Assembly (NCBI GenBank): GCA_015272395.1 | Contig: JACYLQ010000001.1 | Span: 1-64,000 of the forward strand | Reading direction: 5' to 3' | Length of the DNA stretch: 64,000 nt | Source of the DNA: Calothrix sp. C42_A2020_038 | Lineage (GTDB): Bacteria > Cyanobacteriota > Cyanobacteriia > Cyanobacteriales > Nostocaceae | Shown here: positions 52,598 through 61,198 of the stretch, piece by piece | Position numbering within the stretch: the first letter of the stretch is position 1 | Layout: every line of letters starts with the position of its first letter | Translations under genes and position numbers: made by a program | The notes under the pieces: model-generated | Database searches by the model: none | The model's input: the letters and a program-made list of their open reading frames with translations, nothing else | Told to the model about the DNA's origin: nothing

Positions 52598-53875
52598 ATG
52601 TTTCACCGTAGCCGTTGTAATTTGGCTCAATGGTTCACCTTGACAATGGGAACTATATTAGTCACTTTTGCGGGGGTGGTTTATTATCAAGCAGTATTTG
52701 ATGAGTTAAAAAGTTTAGATGAACTACTCTATAAAAAATCTAGAGTTATAGCGCTGAACGCAAGGTACGATTTTCGTCAGCAAAAGCTAGACTTGGAAAA
52801 TGTACCGCTAATCGGAAGTAATGTTCCCCCTTTAGGCAGTGAAGTTGTATACGCGCGTTGGTACGATGCCAAAAACCAGATAGTACAGTTCTTTGGTACT
52901 ATTCCCAAAGCTCAACTAACAAGTAATCCCGGATTCAAGACTATCAAAACCACGCTTCCCGAATCAAGAATCTTGTCAAATCAGATTTGGTTACGTGAGT
53001 TAACATTGCCCGTCTACCAGGATAATTTGCTAATTGGTTATCTTCAAATAGCAGTACCATTAACATCAGTACAAAAAAATTTGGCTGAGTTACGTTGGGT
53101 TTTACTTTTGATAGTACCAGCAACTTTGGCTGTCATAGCTTTAGCTGGTTGGTGTTTGGGAGGGGTTGCAATGCAACCAATTCGTGATAGTTATAATCAG
53201 TTACAACGCTTCACATCTGATGCTTCTCACGAACTCAGATCACCTTTAGCGGCAATTATTAGTAATGCTCAGTACGGTTCAATATCTCAAACAAATGACG
53301 TGGAAATCCAACGTCAGCGTTTTGGGAAGATTGTTGATATTGCTAAGTCAATGAGTATTTTGGTTAATAATCTACTGTTATTAGCACGTCATCAAGGTAG
53401 ATTACCTCCCGAATCTTTACGTCAAGTTGACTTAAGAACTTTACTTGCGCAGCTTGCAGATGAATTTACCACACAAGAAATCACACAACACCTTAATTTG
53501 ACTTATGCTTTACCAACTGACAGTGTGAATGTAATGGGGGATGCAGACCTGTTGCGTCAAGCAGTAGTCAACTTATTGAGTAATGCTTGTAAATACACAC
53601 CTTCGGGTGGTCAAGTTCAATTGCAACTATTAGTACAATCATATTGGGCTGTAATTCAAGTTACAGATAATGGCATTGGCATTCCTGAAGCTGACTTACC
53701 CCATATTTTTGAGCGATTTTATCGTGTAGATAGAAAACGGGAACGCAAAACAGGTGGATACGGTTTAGGATTAGCGATTGCTCAACAAATAATATTTGCA
53801 CATGGTGGCAATATTAGCGTTAAAAGTGTAATTCAAAAAGGATCTACTTTTCAAATATTTTTGCCAGTCAATTAG
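52598..53875 (+). CDS. Orphan sensor histidine kinase (paralogue)
   Basis: A 425-residue membrane kinase, paralogous to the one at 900 from the first residues (MFHRSRCNLAQWFTLTMG). Helices at about 10-32 and 168-190 enclose a periplasmic sensor. HisKA carries His211 in DASHELRSP; HATPase has LLSNACKYTP, DNGIGIP, FERFYR and GYGLGLAI. All catalytic boxes are intact. No regulator adjoins it. The sensor regions differ clearly between the two paralogues (for example SNPGFKTIKT here, ASPGFQTVRN there), so they may feed different signals to a shared regulator. Confidence 0.9.
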   Translation: MFHRSRCNLAQWFTLTMGTILVTFAGVVYYQAVFDELKSLDELLYKKSRVIALNARYDFRQQKLDLENVPLIGSNVPPLGSEVVYARWYDAKNQIVQFFGTIPKAQLTSNPGFKTIKTTLPESRILSNQIWLRELTLPVYQDNLLIGYLQIAVPLTSVQKNLAELRWVLLLIVPATLAVIALAGWCLGGVAMQPIRDSYNQLQRFTSDASHELRSPLAAIISNAQYGSISQTNDVEIQRQRFGKIVDIAKSMSILVNNLLLLARHQGRLPPESLRQVDLRTLLAQLADEFTTQEITQHLNLTYALPTDSVNVMGDADLLRQAVVNLLSNACKYTPSGGQVQLQLLVQSYWAVIQVTDNGIGIPEADLPHIFERFYRVDRKRERKTGGYGLGLAIAQQIIFAHGGNISVKSVIQKGSTFQIFLPVN

Positions 53876-55406: not shown

Positions 55407-56795
55407 TTATCCATTGCTGTGTTTTTTCCTGGTTTGTGGAATAGTGACAGTAAAAGTAGTACCAAGTCCCTCTTGACTTTCTACATCAATTTGTCCTTGA
55501 TGTAAATCTATACATTTTTTAACAACAGCTAACCCTAAACCTGTACCAAGAATTCCCTTGACGTTTTCACCTCGTCGAAAAGGTTCGTACATTTCCTGTT
55601 GAGTCGCGCGGGAAATACCAATTCCTTGGTCTTGAATTTGAAATACTACAGCTTGGTCTTGACATATTAATTTGAAATAAATATCTCGATTTCGCGGTGA
55701 ATACTTAATTGCGTTATAAAGTAAATTACTCAAAATAGAATACAATAATTTTTCATCTACCCATGCATCAGTTGTACTACCTTGCATCTCAAATTTAATC
55801 ACATGACTTGATTCACTTAATGTTTGCATATCTTCAATTAAATTCAAGCAAAAACTTTGCATTTCTAATAGCTGTGGTCTATACTCTAACTTTCCTGCTT
55901 CGGCTCTGGCTAAAGTCAGGATATCTGACAGTAGTTGGGTCATTAATCTGGCATTAGACTGAATGCGATAAAGGTTTTTGAGTTTCTTTTTTTCTACTAT
56001 GTTTTCCAAACTTTCTTCTAAGAGTTGGGAGGAACCTAAGATAATACTTAAAGGTGTACGAAATTCATGAGAAGCCATTGAAAAAAAGTGAAGCTTGAGT
56101 TCACCTAATTCTTTTTCTTTTGCAAGTTGAAGTTGTTTAGCTTCTGCTTGTTGACGTTTTATTAGCTGCCGATAAAGTTGAGCATAAACACCTAGTAATA
56201 AAGAAAAGGTTAACAAGGTGCCAAGAATTTCAATTAACATTCTCGACTGAATATTAGATTGAGATTGCTTTACCCATATATCTAATGCTTGTCGCTCTTG
56301 GCTTTGCATTTGTTCAATTATACGTTGAATTTCACTACGATTTTGGTTATTTTGAGCAACAAAATCAGTTTCAAGAATTTTTAGAGAAGGAGTCTTTCTA
56401 TATGATTCAATACTTTTTTCAAATAAAATCAGTCTCTTCTCAAGTAATGATTTTAATGTAGTTAATCTTTGTTTTTGATCAGAATTATCTATAAATAAAT
56501 TTTCTAATCTTTTGATTTTGGGATTAATTTTCTTAACAGCTTGATTATACCGCTCTAGTTCTAACCTCTCTCCTAAAAGGATATACCCACGTCGTCCTGA
56601 TTCTGCTTCGTTTAAATTGGCAACAATGCCAATTAACATTTCAATGACTTCATGAGTTTCTTTAACTTTTTCACTTGTTTCGGCTAATCTAGTGGCATTT
56701 TGGTAGGAAATCAGACTAATATAACCAATAACTGTCATTACTAGACCGAAGCCTGTTACAATCCACTTTCCTTCTTCTGACCATTTCATATTCAT
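55407..56795 (-). CDS. CHASE3-domain sensor histidine kinase
   Basis: A 462-residue kinase with a membrane helix at about 11-31, a CHASE3-type extracytoplasmic four-helix sensor (about 35-185, NLNEAESGRRGYILLGE), a second helix (about 190-212), a coiled linker rich in Gln/Lys/Glu, HisKA with His243 in ASHEFRTPL, and HATPase with LLYNAIKYSP, DQGIGI and GTGLGLAVVKK. There are alternative Met starts at residues 1 and 3. It is divergent from the OmpR-type regulator gene 69 bp away; the pair should form one two-component system. Its signal is unknown. The small-RNA array beyond the regulator suggests what the system controls. Confidence 0.92.
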   Translation of the reverse strand: MNMKWSEEGKWIVTGFGLVMTVIGYISLISYQNATRLAETSEKVKETHEVIEMLIGIVANLNEAESGRRGYILLGERLELERYNQAVKKINPKIKRLENLFIDNSDQKQRLTTLKSLLEKRLILFEKSIESYRKTPSLKILETDFVAQNNQNRSEIQRIIEQMQSQERQALDIWVKQSQSNIQSRMLIEILGTLLTFSLLLGVYAQLYRQLIKRQQAEAKQLQLAKEKELGELKLHFFSMASHEFRTPLSIILGSSQLLEESLENIVEKKKLKNLYRIQSNARLMTQLLSDILTLARAEAGKLEYRPQLLEMQSFCLNLIEDMQTLSESSHVIKFEMQGSTTDAWVDEKLLYSILSNLLYNAIKYSPRNRDIYFKLICQDQAVVFQIQDQGIGISRATQQEMYEPFRRGENVKGILGTGLGLAVVKKCIDLHQGQIDVESQEGLGTTFTVTIPQTRKKHSNG

Positions 56796-56864: not shown

Positions 56865-57539
56865 ATGCGTATTTTAGTTGTTGAAGACGATGTGCAAATC
56901 GCTGATATGCTAGCGGAAGCCCTGACAAACCGACAGTACATGGTGGATGTTGTCCAAGATGGCGAAGCTGCATTAAATTATGTGGAGACATTAAATTATA
57001 ACTTAATCGTGCTAGATATTACTTTACCCAAACTAGATGGAATTAAGTTTTGTCAAAAATTACGCTCGCGTAACTTACCCATTCCCATTCTAATGCTCAC
57101 TGCCCGCGACACCATCGCTGATAAAATCATTGGATTAGATGCTGGCGCCGATGACTATATGGTCAAACCTTTTGACTTGGGAGAACTAATGGCGCGCGTT
57201 AGAGCGCTTTCACGTCGCGGCAACTCCCAACCAGGGGTCAACTTGTCTTGGGGGTGCTTGTGTATAAACCAAAGTACTTATGAAGTTTTTTACGAAGAGC
57301 AACTTTTAAACCTAACACCCAAAGAATACTCAATTTTGGAGCTATTGGTTTCTAACGGTCGTCGGGTTTTAAGTAGACCGGGTATCATCCAGCAAGTTTG
57401 GTCTATGGAAGACCCTCCCACCGAAGACACCGTTAAATCCCATATCAAAAGTTTACGCCAAAAACTCAGAGAAGCAGGGGCGCCTGACGAGTTTATTGAA
57501 ACTGTTCATGGGTTAGGTTATCGTTTGAAGCAACTTTAG
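56865..57539 (+). CDS. OmpR/PhoB-type response regulator
   Basis: A 224-residue regulator with receiver pocket EDD (8-10), phospho-acceptor Asp51 in LIVLDITLP, Thr in MLTARD and Lys in YMVKPFD. The winged helix (about 130-222) holds LTPKEYSILELLVSNGRRVL and DTVKSHIKSLRQKLREAG. It pairs with the divergent CHASE3 kinase. Directly downstream, from 57550, begin four modules with 11-bp direct repeats of the kind such regulators bind. Its own start region contains GAGTTAAAATG (56857-56867), also found in the second module's -10 region, so autoregulation by the same sites is conceivable. Confidence 0.93.
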   Translation: MRILVVEDDVQIADMLAEALTNRQYMVDVVQDGEAALNYVETLNYNLIVLDITLPKLDGIKFCQKLRSRNLPIPILMLTARDTIADKIIGLDAGADDYMVKPFDLGELMARVRALSRRGNSQPGVNLSWGCLCINQSTYEVFYEEQLLNLTPKEYSILELLVSNGRRVLSRPGIIQQVWSMEDPPTEDTVKSHIKSLRQKLREAGAPDEFIETVHGLGYRLKQL

Positions 57540-57549
57540 ACACTCTACC

Positions 57550-57593
57550 CAATTTTTACACGCTTTTTTCCTCATTTCTCAACTTTTTGAGCC
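57550..57593 (+). promoter_or_regulatory. Module A: four 11-bp repeats
   Basis: Consecutive 11-mers CAATTTTTACA, CGCTTTTTTCC, TCATTTCTCAA and CTTTTTGAGCC, followed by the -10-like TTATAAAT at 57598-57605. The 11-bp phase and the position just before a -10 box fit activation by an OmpR-type regulator. Confidence 0.55.
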
Positions 57594-57611
57594 TAAGTTA
57601 TAAATACAACT

Positions 57612-57686
57612 AAATCATACCTTGACAACATACAGATCACAAGTTGGTTATCTCTGAAAAGTGACAGCCAACTTTTATTTTTATTT
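57612..57686 (+). ncRNA. Putative small RNA A
   Basis: Predicted transcript of about 75 nt from just after the -10 box to the T-run following the hairpin AAGTTGG...CCAACTT (57641-57674). No start codon with ribosome site. Transcription start is inferred. Confidence 0.5.
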
Positions 57687-57696
57687 AAAAATTACT

Positions 57697-57740
57697 CGAT
57701 TTCTACTCAATTTTAACCTGATATTTTAACTTCGTTAGAG
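57697..57740 (+). promoter_or_regulatory. Module B: four 11-bp repeats
   Basis: 11-mers CGATTTCTACT, CAATTTTAACC, TGATATTTTAA and CTTCGTTAGAG, followed by the -10-like TTAAAAT at 57741-57747. Same layout as module A. Confidence 0.6.
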
Positions 57741-57754
57741 TTAAAATGAAAATC

Positions 57755-57828
57755 TAAGTGGCTTAGTCACCTATTAAATGGGAACATACATAATAGATTC
57801 CTGTTATGGGCGGGAATCTATTTTTATT
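57755..57828 (+). ncRNA. Putative small RNA B
   Basis: Predicted transcript of about 75 nt ending at the hairpin AATAGATTCC...GGAATCTATT (57792-57822) plus TTTATT. Loop TGTTATGGGCG is similar to that of RNA D. Transcription start inferred. Confidence 0.55.
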
Positions 57829-57841
57829 GTGATTTCATCTA

Positions 57842-57885
57842 CTCATTATCTACCCGATTTGCTTCTCTTTTTTTTACCGTTATGG
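57842..57885 (+). promoter_or_regulatory. Module C: 11-bp repeats, more degenerate
   Basis: 11-mers CTCATTATCTA, CCCGATTTGCT, TCTCTTTTTTT and TACCGTTATGG, followed by the -10-like TATAGTGTAAAT region near 57888. More degenerate than B and D. Confidence 0.5.
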
Positions 57886-57899
57886 CATATAGTGTAAAT

Positions 57900-57980
57900 A
57901 TGTAAGTTGTATGTCTCCATAACTCCTATTCCACACTATTAAATCGATTCTTGGAAGAATATCAAGAGTCGATTTTTATA
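57900..57980 (+). ncRNA. Putative small RNA C
   Basis: Predicted transcript of about 80 nt ending at the hairpin AAATCGATTCTTG...CAAGAGTCGATTT (57941-57975) with a following T-rich run. It shares CATAACTC and the terminator stem sequence with RNA D. Confidence 0.55.
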
Positions 57981-58015
57981 ATTTTTAATTTCTATTTATA
58001 ATTAATATCTATACT

Positions 58016-58059
58016 CGATTTCTACCCGATTTTTACCAAATTTCTCAACTTGATGGCAC
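58016..58059 (+). promoter_or_regulatory. Module D: 11-bp repeats, best match
   Basis: 11-mers CGATTTCTACC, CGATTTTTACC, AAATTTCTCAA and CTTGATGGCAC, followed by the -10-like TTAGACT region at 58066. The first two differ at one base; the third is nearly the same as in module A. Confidence 0.6.
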
Positions 58060-58079
58060 TAAGATTTAGACTGTAGCTA

Positions 58080-58140
58080 ATTATTCATAACTCGTTTACA
58101 CCAAGAATCGATTCTTGTCTTGGGCAGGAATCGATTTTTT
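58080..58140 (+). ncRNA. Putative small RNA D
   Basis: Predicted transcript of about 60 nt ending at the hairpin AATCGATTC...GAATCGATT (58106-58136) followed by TTTT. The best terminator of the four. Transcription start inferred. Confidence 0.6.
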
Positions 58141-58291
58141 ATGTGTTTCTCCTACACATCTCTTGCATCTTGATAATAGCAAGGATTTTCACGTCATGTA
58201 TCTAAGCATACGAATTTATTTGGGCTTTTGTTAGCTATGAATCTATAAACTTGCCTGGTAAAAACAATTTTTGCTTCAGAGAAAAGAAAAC

Positions 58292-61198
58292 ATGGATATT
58301 TTAAATTCTTACTATTATGGACGTGACATGACAGCAATAAATATTGATAAGCCTGTAACTGATGTTCATCCACTTGCTGATACAGAATGGCATAATCTTG
58401 ATATAAGCGAAGTAGTGTCTATCTTAGGAACTGATTTACACAATGGATTGAATCATACAGAAGTGAATCCCCGACAAGCGTTATATGGAGTCAATGAATT
58501 AACTGTAAACTCTTCTAAATCCTGGTCACGCTTGATTCAACAATTTCAGCAACCTCAACCGTTTATATATATATTGTTACTTCTAGGATTCGTCGAAGCT
58601 GTAATCGGTTCTTGGAGAAATGCAGCAGCAATTTTGGGTGTAATCGTTCTGAATGTGATCATTAATTATGTGGAAGAATTAAAAGCAGAAGAGGTGATAT
58701 CAGCTTTAGCAAAAGCTGGAACTACACAAGTAACAGTGGTGCGTGACGGGAAAAAACATCGTATCAGAGCAAATGAATTAGTACCTGGTGATTTGGTACT
58801 TTTGACCTACGGCAGTAAAGTCCCAGCTGATTTACGTTTAATTAGTGCAAATAACTTACAAGTAGATGAATCTTTCTTTGCTAGCTTTGCTAGGAATTGT
58901 ACACTAGTTCGTAAAAACACAAGATTGTTAAGTAAAGATACCCCATTAGCAGAAAGAGATAATATTGCTTATACGGGAAGCTTTGTGAAATGCGGGCAAG
59001 GTAGTGGTATTGTCATAGCGACTGGTAATAACACACAAATTAGTCTGCTTTCTCAGCCGATGTCAGCGCGTTTCGGCTTTAATACGTCTTTAACTCGTAA
59101 ATTTACTAAATTTAGTCAGAACCTAACTTATATTATTTTATTTTTGGCTAGCTTTACTTTTATTCTAGGAATCGGGTTTGGAAAACCTTGGCGCCAGATG
59201 TTTGATGGAGTGGTCGCGTTAGCTGTAAGTGCCATCCCTCAAGGGTTGTCTGCTGTAACAACTATTATCTTAGTAACTGGAATTGAACGCATGGCGCGGC
59301 GCCATGTTCTAATTCGTAACCTATCAGTATTGGAAACACTGGGTAGTACTACGGTGATATGTTCTGATAAAACAGGTACATTAACAGAAAATCAAATCAC
59401 CGTACAGTTAATCTATGCAGATGGACAGTATACTCTTGGTGGAATCGGATATAATCCCAAGGGAACAATTTGGTATTCAGATAATCTGCAACCAGTACAT
59501 TTTGGCGGAAGATTTTTACCTACAAGTGCAGTTAATACCAAAACTTCTGGTGGAGATTCATATACAACTAATAACAAATATATCTCGCACATGGCTTTGA
59601 AAGAATGCTTAGTTGCAGGTTTGTTATGTAATAACTCTCATTTAGAGCCAAGGGGAAATCAATGGGTTGTTGTGGGAGACTCGACCGAAGGAGCTTTTAT
59701 TGTTTCTGCCCGTAAAGCTGGTTTGAGTCAGTCAAAACATAGAGAAGCAATGCCCAGACTAGATATCATCCCCTTTGATTCAAAGTATCAATACATGGCT
59801 ACTTTGCATAAAAGTGGGAATGAAAATTTACTCACTAATAACTCAGAATTAAATCAAAAATCATTCAATACTATTTATATTAAAGGCTCCGTTGAGGCAA
59901 TTCTTAGCCGTAGTCAACAAGCTATAGACAAGTACGGAAATTTGACTCCTCTAAACCATAACTTTATTGAACAAGAAGCAGAGACATTAGCAAAACAAGG
60001 TTTGCGAGTATTTGCTTTTGCCAAGAAAATTGTAGCTGGTAACTGTAACATCATAACTCACGATAGCATCGCCTCTGACCTAATTTTTCTGGGACTACAA
60101 GCAATGATTGATCCTGGCAGACAAGATGTGGCTGCTGCGATTAAATCCTGCCATTCTGCGGGAATTAAGGTTAAGATGATTACCGGAGAGCATGTGACTA
60201 CAGCAGTGGCTATAGGTTACAAGTTGGGTTTAAGTAAAAATGCTGAAATTACTGCGTTCCAAGGTGAACATCTCGCAGTGATGAATGATACCGAAATTAA
60301 AGAGGCTGTAGAAACTGGGGTAGTCTTTGCGAGAGTTACACCAGATCAAAAATTGCATCTTGTTCAGGCATTACAGAATAATGGTGAAATTGTTGCAGTG
60401 ACAGGAAATGGGGTGAATGATACTCCAGCTTTGAAAAAGGCAGACATTGGTATTGCAATGGGGAAAGCGGGAACAGATGTTGCCAAAGAAAGCGCTGATA
60501 TATTATTGACCAATGATAACTTTGTTGCGATTAAAGCTGCTATTGAGGAAGGACGAAGCATTTATCAAAATTTGCACAAAGTAATTGCCTTCATATTACC
60601 TGTAAACTTTAGCGAGTCGATGACAGTATTAATTGCTGCATTAATAGGATTACAATTACCTATTTTGCCAATACATATTCTCTGGCTAAATATTATTAAT
60701 ATGATTATGACTGTTTCATTGGCATTTGAACCAAAATCGAACTATTTAATGAAACGCTCTCAGGCTCATCAAAATAAATCTTTTCTGTCAAAAAGATTAC
60801 TCTGGAGGATTTTGTTAATCTCTGCATTAAACTGGATAATAATATTCGGAATATTTGAATGGTCATATCGTACATTTTTGGATGTTGCTATTGCTCAGAC
60901 AATGGCAATACAAGCTCTAATGATTGCGAGAATCGTTTATTTACTAAGTATTAGCCACTGGAAAAATATTATTGTTAATTTTCAAGACCAAATGGTGCCG
61001 GATGAAGATGCTCCTGCAATTGCACTAGCTGCTGTTACCTCTATAATCCTACAATTTATGTTTAGCCAATGGAGCGTCATGAACACTTTGTTGGCAACTA
61101 CTTCTTTAAACCTTAATCAGTGGTTAATTTGTTTAATTCCAGCTTTAATTATGATTCCAGTCGCAATTGTTACAAATCAATTTAATTGCCAAGAATAG
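58292..61198 (+). CDS. Degenerate P2-type ATPase (probable pseudo-pump)
   Basis: A 968-residue relative of the P-type ATPase at 39352, full length, with the phosphorylation loop intact (Asp359 in [11 protein letters not shown]) and the nucleotide-domain KGS present. Motifs needed for the cycle are altered: actuator TGES is replaced by Ala-Ser-Phe-Ala at about 197-200 (ESFFASFAR); M4 PEGLP is PQGLS (Gln317); TGDH is TGEH (Glu633); TGDGVND is TGNGVND (Asn706); DPPR is DPGR. M6 lacks one residue. Loss of TGES should block dephosphorylation and loss of the TGDG Asp should impair Mg2+-dependent phosphorylation. The frame is open throughout, so it is kept under selection or decayed recently; a regulatory or sensor role is possible. 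The ATG at 58292 has GAGAAAAG upstream. The small-RNA array ends 150 bp before it. Confidence 0.88.
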   Translation: MDILNSYYYGRDMTAINIDKPVTDVHPLADTEWHNLDISEVVSILGTDLHNGLNHTEVNPRQALYGVNELTVNSSKSWSRLIQQFQQPQPFIYILLLLGFVEAVIGSWRNAAAILGVIVLNVIINYVEELKAEEVISALAKAGTTQVTVVRDGKKHRIRANELVPGDLVLLTYGSKVPADLRLISANNLQVDESFFASFARNCTLVRKNTRLLSKDTPLAERDNIAYTGSFVKCGQGSGIVIATGNNTQISLLSQPMSARFGFNTSLTRKFTKFSQNLTYIILFLASFTFILGIGFGKPWRQMFDGVVALAVSAIPQGLSAVTTIILVTGIERMARRHVLIRNLSVLETLGSTTVICSDKTGTLTENQITVQLIYADGQYTLGGIGYNPKGTIWYSDNLQPVHFGGRFLPTSAVNTKTSGGDSYTTNNKYISHMALKECLVAGLLCNNSHLEPRGNQWVVVGDSTEGAFIVSARKAGLSQSKHREAMPRLDIIPFDSKYQYMATLHKSGNENLLTNNSELNQKSFNTIYIKGSVEAILSRSQQAIDKYGNLTPLNHNFIEQEAETLAKQGLRVFAFAKKIVAGNCNIITHDSIASDLIFLGLQAMIDPGRQDVAAAIKSCHSAGIKVKMITGEHVTTAVAIGYKLGLSKNAEITAFQGEHLAVMNDTEIKEAVETGVVFARVTPDQKLHLVQALQNNGEIVAVTGNGVNDTPALKKADIGIAMGKAGTDVAKESADILLTNDNFVAIKAAIEEGRSIYQNLHKVIAFILPVNFSESMTVLIAALIGLQLPILPIHILWLNIINMIMTVSLAFEPKSNYLMKRSQAHQNKSFLSKRLLWRILLISALNWIIIFGIFEWSYRTFLDVAIAQTMAIQALMIARIVYLLSISHWKNIIVNFQDQMVPDEDAPAIALAAVTSIILQFMFSQWSVMNTLLATTSLNLNQWLICLIPALIMIPVAIVTNQFNCQE

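Follow-up and report, generated by a model that had tools for sequence, protein, structure and literature searches.

The window, a 64,000-nt stretch of DNA (contig 24 of the 6.5-Mb genome that we label G000, its six congeners being G001–G006), carries a run of four modules, A to D, between a gene for an OmpR-type response regulator and a gene for a P-type ATPase, at 57546–57680, 57693–57828, 57840–57984 and 58012–58146. All four follow one plan, which consists of 11-bp phased repeats of the TACCCGATTTC type, a TANNNT box 48–49 nt from the start of the repeats, a leader, and a hairpin followed by a T-rich tail, with a predicted RNA of about 70–85 nt that ends in an intrinsic terminator. The repeat blocks start at 57546, 57693, 57840 and 58012 (spacing 147, 147 and 172), and the first of them begins 7 nt past the regulator stop codon. 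The features of the locus are listed here with their scores from the box matrix and the covariance model R1, both described below.

55407–56795, minus strand: histidine kinase with a CHASE3 sensor domain, divergent from the regulator (Pfam CHASE3, HisKA, HATPase_c)
56865–57539, plus strand: OmpR-type response regulator, RppA-like, the putative activator of the modules (Pfam Response_reg and Trans_reg_C)
57546–57589, plus strand: module A, putative 11-bp phased regulator box (matrix score 26.8; repeat family D1)
57594–57599, plus strand: module A, -10-like TAAGTT
57605–57680, plus strand: module A, predicted sRNA with hairpin at 57641–57674 (R1 42.8 bits for the whole module)
57693–57736, plus strand: module B, putative regulator box (matrix score 28.8)
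57742–57747, plus strand: module B, -10-like TAAAAT, one base farther from its box than in A, C and D
57752–57828, plus strand: module B, predicted sRNA with terminator at 57792–57822 (R1 35.3 bits)
57840–57883, plus strand: module C, putative regulator box, the weakest of the four (matrix score 14.8)
57888–57893, plus strand: module C, -10-like TATAGT
57899–57982, plus strand: module C, predicted sRNA with terminator at 57941–57975 (R1 26.2 bits)
57918–57934, plus strand: module C, predicted seed of CAU, anti-Shine-Dalgarno stretch and CAC, with complementarity to the start region of the lipoprotein gene (ranked 3 of 356, with a duplex of -23.5 kcal/mol)
58012–58055, plus strand: module D, putative regulator box, the best of the four (matrix score 35.6)
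58060–58065, plus strand: module D, -10-like TAAGAT
58071–58141, plus strand: module D, predicted sRNA with terminator at 58103–58139 (R1 49.0 bits)
58086–58104, plus strand: module D, predicted seed with complementarity to the start region of the lipoprotein gene (ranked 1 of 356, with a duplex of -28.2 kcal/mol)
58292–61198, plus strand: P-type cation ATPase of about 970 aa, downstream of the array (Pfam)

The original prediction, made from the letters of the sequence, had placed repeats, -10-like boxes and hairpins in each of the four modules, and all of these were recovered in place, the hairpins of B, C and D by a terminator scan and that of A, which is imperfect, on folding. Its claim that the modules hold no credible open reading frame also stands: in the stretch checked, no ATG frame of A, C or D exceeds 10 codons, and the ATG frame of B passes through the terminator. 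Module A has a GTG frame of 22 codons and D a TTG frame of 30 codons that stays open, and an ATG frame of at least 6 codons is found in 9 of 29 homologues from other genera, where most such frames run off the end.

We scored the boxes with a 33-nt position matrix trained on 29 boxes, all from other genera. Once the one-repeat-shifted copies of A, B and D are set aside, the boxes of D, B, A and C, in that order, are the top four sites on both strands of the 64 kb, the best score outside the cluster being 9.7; maxima in 100 first-order Markov sequences of 64 kb, scored on one strand each, averaged 10.1 and reached 18.9. Because its score of 14.8 falls within these simulated maxima, box C is not significant alone, and we count it as a putative box by its position, register and conservation. 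R1, a covariance model built from 29 modules of other genera with no sequence of the window's genus in it, has the four modules as its top four matches in the 64 kb (49.0 to 26.2 bits, E 1.3e-7 to 0.0035, the box contributing part of the score), followed by a next-best match of 15.1 bits; three of the four, A, B and D, pass E 0.01 in a stricter scan of the whole genome. The terminator scan, run over 3 kb, found three terminators where shuffled sequence averaged 1.4 (sd 1.2). Fold z-scores of the predicted RNAs are -2.66 for A, -2.84 for B, -2.79 for C and -4.87 for D, with none of 200 shuffles as stable as D, and D folds with the terminator hairpin only, the other three with at most a weak second hairpin. 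Searching the window against Rfam 15 gave no match at the gathering score and, at a relaxed threshold, a single snoRNA match on the opposite strand (E 0.94); locus L226, which carries a related module, was likewise without an Rfam match, and a plasmid BLAST with the array as query returned none.

Conservation of the array is complete within the genus, as all six other genomes searched carry three or four modules at the same place; the genus model R2 finds four in G000, G001, G003, G004, G005 and G006 and three in G002. G003 has an additional module about 3 kb upstream of its regulator gene, away from the array. This module (L376, G003:C8:312022-312154) is C-like and adjoins an apparent second response-regulator gene, and a weaker, partial R2 match lies at G003:C22:180714. 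A three-repeat pattern gave 15 matches in the seven genus genomes, 13 of them in the array and two that overlap within a single low-complexity stretch of G000, against one match for its control, and a two-repeat pattern occurs outside the arrays at one site in G006 and one in G002. Strong boxes are nearly exclusive to the array within the genus, and weak boxes may occur elsewhere in these genomes. Across 217 family genomes the two-repeat box, with up to two mismatches, is present in 54 and gave 97 sites against 12 for the reversed control, the 97 including register-shifted copies and promoters of protein genes. R1 at E 0.01 matched 47 of 208 genomes and 16 of 56 genera, and these counts include some box-driven promoters of protein genes. 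A regulator scan of named genomes gave, among the 80 loci listed, mostly unrelated bacteria, and of these loci only L031 (Calothrix brevissima NIES-22) was used. The original prediction was open to refutation by a lack of this layout beside orthologous regulators, and had proposed a covariance search of related genomes; the comparison did not refute it: repeats, -10 box and hairpin are kept in seven of seven genus genomes, modules were recovered in all six congeners and in other genera, and in 28 genomes of other genera, which come from loci retrieved through a regulator or box match, the box begins 7–48 nt after the end of the regulator match. Among 40 aligned modules the A and the last T of the -10 box are invariant and the first T nearly so (the L178 module was omitted from alignment A2). 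The terminator stems of 13 genus-type modules share one stem, with changes on both sides at 6 of its 11 pairs; stems differ in sequence between genera, and most leaders outside the genus contain a core such as AAUAACUCCUUUGGAACACCAC ahead of the terminator. From these sequences we read A–D as tandem duplicates of one ancestral sRNA that probably resembled the single copy of G024 and G080; where related species have the arrangement, the number of copies is usually lower.

The regulator scores 229.9 bits against the NCBIfam model of RppA (NF041734), its best NCBIfam match, which is below the cut-off of 250 and leaves it outside RppA by that model. Its probable partner is the CHASE3 histidine kinase; a kinase of this family is encoded on the opposite strand in 20 of the 21 island maps, the window counted. 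An RppB-like second histidine kinase (52598–53875; 301.7 bits, under a cut-off of 400) ends 3 kb upstream of the regulator. A relative of the ATPase follows the array in G001, G003, G004, G005 and G006 as well as in G024, G220 and G080, and is not adjacent in G002. P-type ATPases usually carry the motifs GDGVND, TGES and DKTGT. By eye, these catalytic motifs are altered here (window, L008, L003, L239 and L240), for example with GNGVND for GDGVND and no clear TGES, and the ATPase of G024 has DMRTLT where DKTGT is usual; despite this, six of the seven genus genomes and the three others named retain a related ATPase behind the array.

The start region of a gene for a small lipoprotein was among the inspected contexts of matches to the complement of the D core, a pattern with at least 417 matches against at least 273 for its control (six genomes, among the matches listed), and since the lipoprotein was first noticed among these hundreds, its ranks within the genus are partly post hoc. 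The gene is near-universal in the family (matched in 193 of 208 genomes), and its start region was located in 67 of the 68 genomes retrieved, the exception being G233. All 67 regions end in GAGGAGTTATG, with GGTG 2–6 nt before it, and the reverse complement of the commonest form, CATAACTCCTCTTTCACCAA, matches both conserved blocks in the leaders of C and D; what the genus conserves in these leaders is the set of bases complementary to a start region. These regions are equally conserved in the 42 genomes with R1 matches and in the 25 others, and therefore the sRNA alone does not maintain them. Many lipoprotein mRNAs (L306–L375) have a further element, of the GGTATCGTATTCAACAGGC type and possibly also regulatory, about 40–60 nt upstream of the ATG.

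To rank the lipoprotein, the predicted duplex of each genus module with the lipoprotein start of its own genome was compared with duplexes to 355 other start regions (356 in total), using energies that ignore target structure. D ranked the lipoprotein 1, 2, 1, 1, 1 and 1 in six genomes and C ranked it 3, 1, 4, 3, 2, 10 and 1 in seven, whereas its rank was 67–251 for A across the genus and, for B, 2 in G000 and 156–265 in the other genomes. Among shuffles that preserve AACUC, 0 of 300 equaled D in each of the five genomes where this control was applied, and fractions of 0.000 to 0.073 equaled C, the core of which is partly paired in its own fold. The pattern GGTGN{0,9}GGAGTTATGA has 13 matches in the genus, comprising the lipoprotein in seven of seven genomes, two sites antisense to C-type modules and four single sites. 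Judged by predicted duplexes, then, A has no support for a lipoprotein target and B has it in G000 only, and the four modules are not interchangeable, with only C and D matching the predicted target consistently. Target searches with A and B in five genomes gave multi-genome matches that, where inspected, proved to be the modules themselves or fell within coding sequence or antisense to it, and a search with the g5 core gave 57 matches against 88 for its control. One B match (L466, L467 and L473) covers a possible ATG of a short frame.

The 29 sRNAs of other genera are a cleaner test of the target, but give weaker support than the genus ranks. Their median rank for the lipoprotein is 10 of 356, and it falls in the top 12 for 55% of them; the figure is 0% among 58 shuffles, and 22% among 58 in which the anti-Shine-Dalgarno stretch is retained. 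The sRNAs of G140, G142 and G202, which lack a lipoprotein region of their own, were scored here against that of G181. By mean z the lipoprotein comes fourth of 356, the best region being murC of G010, which had entered the set via an sRNA-derived pattern, and for 13 of 24 non-genus sRNAs the match to the lipoprotein is better than that of 95% of shuffles of the same sRNA.

We consider it probable that the modules are four regulator-activated genes for trans-acting sRNAs, and that C and D repress the small lipoprotein mRNA. This reading builds on the computed layout and its conservation, the kinship of the modules, their in-register promoters and terminators, and the complementarity of C and D, from which we infer regulator binding and activation, transcription, repression and an envelope or osmotic stress signal. 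The region would be a tandem array of four paralogous sRNA genes, each with its own promoter, in which the phosphorylated OmpR-type regulator would bind the 11-bp repeats covering the -35 region and activate transcription from the TANNNT box. The RNAs would accumulate under stress, each transcript being a mostly unstructured leader plus the intrinsic terminator. The bipartite seed of C and D, CAUAACUC(C) followed by CAC(CAA), would pair with the Shine-Dalgarno region and start codon of the lipoprotein mRNA, blocking ribosome access and repressing translation, and A and B, having diverged, would probably act on other mRNAs.

If the sRNAs are real but the lipoprotein is not their main target, their C-rich seeds might act broadly on Shine-Dalgarno-rich mRNAs, murC and others of the Yfr1 regulon included, an alternative that we regard as unlikely but still deserving of weight. 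All 48 genomes searched have a murC gene, and its start region, located for 46 of them, contains GGTGTGGTGT in most cases; its median rank is 1 for 24 non-genus sRNAs (the start region being missing for the other five of the 29, those of G024, G140, G142, G202 and G220), and with module A as the sRNA it ranks 1–15 across the seven genomes of the genus. According to the parts of PMC6974561 used here, reporter tests show that Yfr1 represses several Nostoc envelope genes, among them murC, and a Nostoc strain with reduced Yfr1 has more murC mRNA. However, shuffled sRNAs of the non-genus set also rank murC high (median 4.5), which marks it as a sticky sequence, and only 10 of these 24 sRNAs beat 95% of their own shuffles on it, against the 13 that do so on the lipoprotein. 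For the 27 genus modules the median rank is 7 against 47 for shuffles, but only five beat 95% of their own shuffles (A in two genomes, C in two and D in one). murC had at first been top-ranked as the strongest target and was demoted on account of the shuffles; we keep it as a weak second candidate.

Repression of the lipoprotein mRNA by separate small RNAs also has to be set against readings in which the modules do something else. They could be no separate RNA genes at all, serving as regulator-controlled promoters or attenuators of the ATPase mRNA or being remnants of operator duplication whose hairpins terminate the regulator gene, as their place between the regulator and a same-strand gene might suggest. 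The same box does drive protein genes in other genera, but here each box is followed by its own terminator, and stand-alone copies with 100–121 bits to R1 lie directly behind the divergent kinase gene and not after a same-strand gene (L226, L245, L233, L228 and L242). With the further G003 copy away from the array and with G002 keeping three modules without an adjacent ATPase, we find this reading improbable, and the simpler idea that the hairpins are mere regulator terminators was set aside because the stand-alone copies exist. It is just as hard to credit that the hairpin RNAs act through protein binding or as sponges for another RNA instead of pairing with mRNAs, which would fit the lack of any target found for A, and for B outside G000, and a conserved non-coding site complementary to the D seed in three genus loci, but not the conserved C and D leader bases that complement a start region, nor terminator stems that vary between genera. 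At those three loci (L282, L290 and L305; G003:C19:145630 and two others) the conserved non-coding stretch has complementary flanking arms, and its TTGGTG[T/C]TAGAGGAGTT[A/G] complements the D seed; this stretch may serve as a second target or as an RNA sponge.

For trans-acting sRNAs of the kind we favor here, the closest known mode of action is, by analogy, that of the CiaR csRNAs. In the parts of PMC3091779 used here, these are paralogous streptococcal sRNAs under one response regulator, with a direct-repeat box of 11-bp period, an anti-Shine-Dalgarno and CAU anti-start sequence in an unpaired region, two stem-loops and a terminal terminator. The array likewise has a direct-repeat box of 11-bp period before the -10 box, and its modules, known here by sequence only, are intergenic, have an intrinsic terminator and occur in several copies per genome. 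The original prediction had drawn this likeness from the layout, and it extends further: C and D carry CAU and then an anti-Shine-Dalgarno stretch, as the csRNAs do (PMC3091779, same parts), CAU+AACUC(C) being partly paired in C of the window and unpaired in D, with A and B lacking the core. Unlike the csRNAs, the array belongs to a different phylum and has a different box, seed and predicted target; its boxes have four repeats instead of two, its modules stand in tandem directly beside the regulator gene, and where the csRNAs have two stem-loops, D forms just its terminator hairpin and A, B and C add no more than a weak second one. Membership of the csRNA family was ruled out, as the TACCCGATTTC box is not the CiaR box TTTAAG-N5-TTTAAG.

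NsiR1 of Nostoc, as described in the parts of PMC9045159 used here, is an sRNA about 60 nt long whose tandem copies each have a promoter of their own, and copies that differ regulate different targets. The array resembles it as a cyanobacterial tandem set whose copies may differ in target, whereas NsiR1 is HetR-dependent, has DIF1 promoters and lies upstream of hetF, and the array has OmpR-type boxes beside a two-component system. Yfr1 has a conserved CCUC-containing region, acts on envelope-gene start regions in Nostoc and is present in all cyanobacterial genomes analyzed (PMC6974561, in the parts used here). The array RNAs share with it a CCUC-type conserved region that would be directed at envelope-gene start regions, murC included, but unlike Yfr1 they are regulator-boxed, patchily distributed, often multi-copy and without an Rfam family. 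MicL of enterobacteria, which belongs to the Sigma-E and Hfq system, is a stress-regulated sRNA that represses the abundant small lipoprotein Lpp; the likeness, of a stress-linked sRNA set against a small lipoprotein, is one of analogy only, with unrelated sequences and with abundance stated for Lpp only. By a term search, the main text of a study of conserved sRNAs of heterocystous cyanobacteria (PMC4734099) mentions no response regulator, two-component system, lipoprotein or Calothrix. Since the literature searched, which left most subscription journals outside it, showed no such system, the array may be the first of its kind in cyanobacteria.

The same box in other genera also precedes a gene for a 73–78-aa protein, followed by genes for a GT4 glycosyltransferase, which resembles sucrose-phosphate synthase below threshold, and for a sucrose-6-phosphate phosphatase. 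Some sRNA copies lie near a gene for a penicillin-binding-type transpeptidase and a second gene that by eye resembles one. These sucrose-type genes behind the box and transpeptidase genes near sRNA copies suggest an osmotic or envelope signal for the regulator, and the box regulon recalls that of OrrA, the Anabaena osmotic regulator (alr3768). We speculate, as a possibility that we would not yet favor, that in filamentous cyanobacteria a csRNA-like set arose independently under an envelope or osmotic stress two-component system, in which tandem duplication of one regulator-adjacent sRNA was followed by specialization of C and D as dedicated lipoprotein repressors and of A and B for other envelope targets such as murC; overlap with the Yfr1 network is possible because Yfr1 acts on murC. 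If the proposed function is true, the array would be a two-component-controlled tandem sRNA set in cyanobacteria whose mRNA target is concrete, conserved and easy to test, would offer a natural series of one to five copies across the family for watching duplicated sRNAs gain different targets, and would link a little-known kinase and regulator pair to cell-envelope control in multicellular cyanobacteria.

The conserved 73–78-aa protein (MSxFSVNIxNIVLT...), which has no Pfam or NCBIfam family at 0.001, is encoded immediately after a second regulator box in 10 of the 21 island maps (L228 9071–9292, L226 11507–11737, L230, L231 and others). Related regulators at L012, L015, L018 and L025 are followed by a variant repeat of the TGCACAATTTC type and a small protein (HGWLIE...), which suggests a sister system with a different box.
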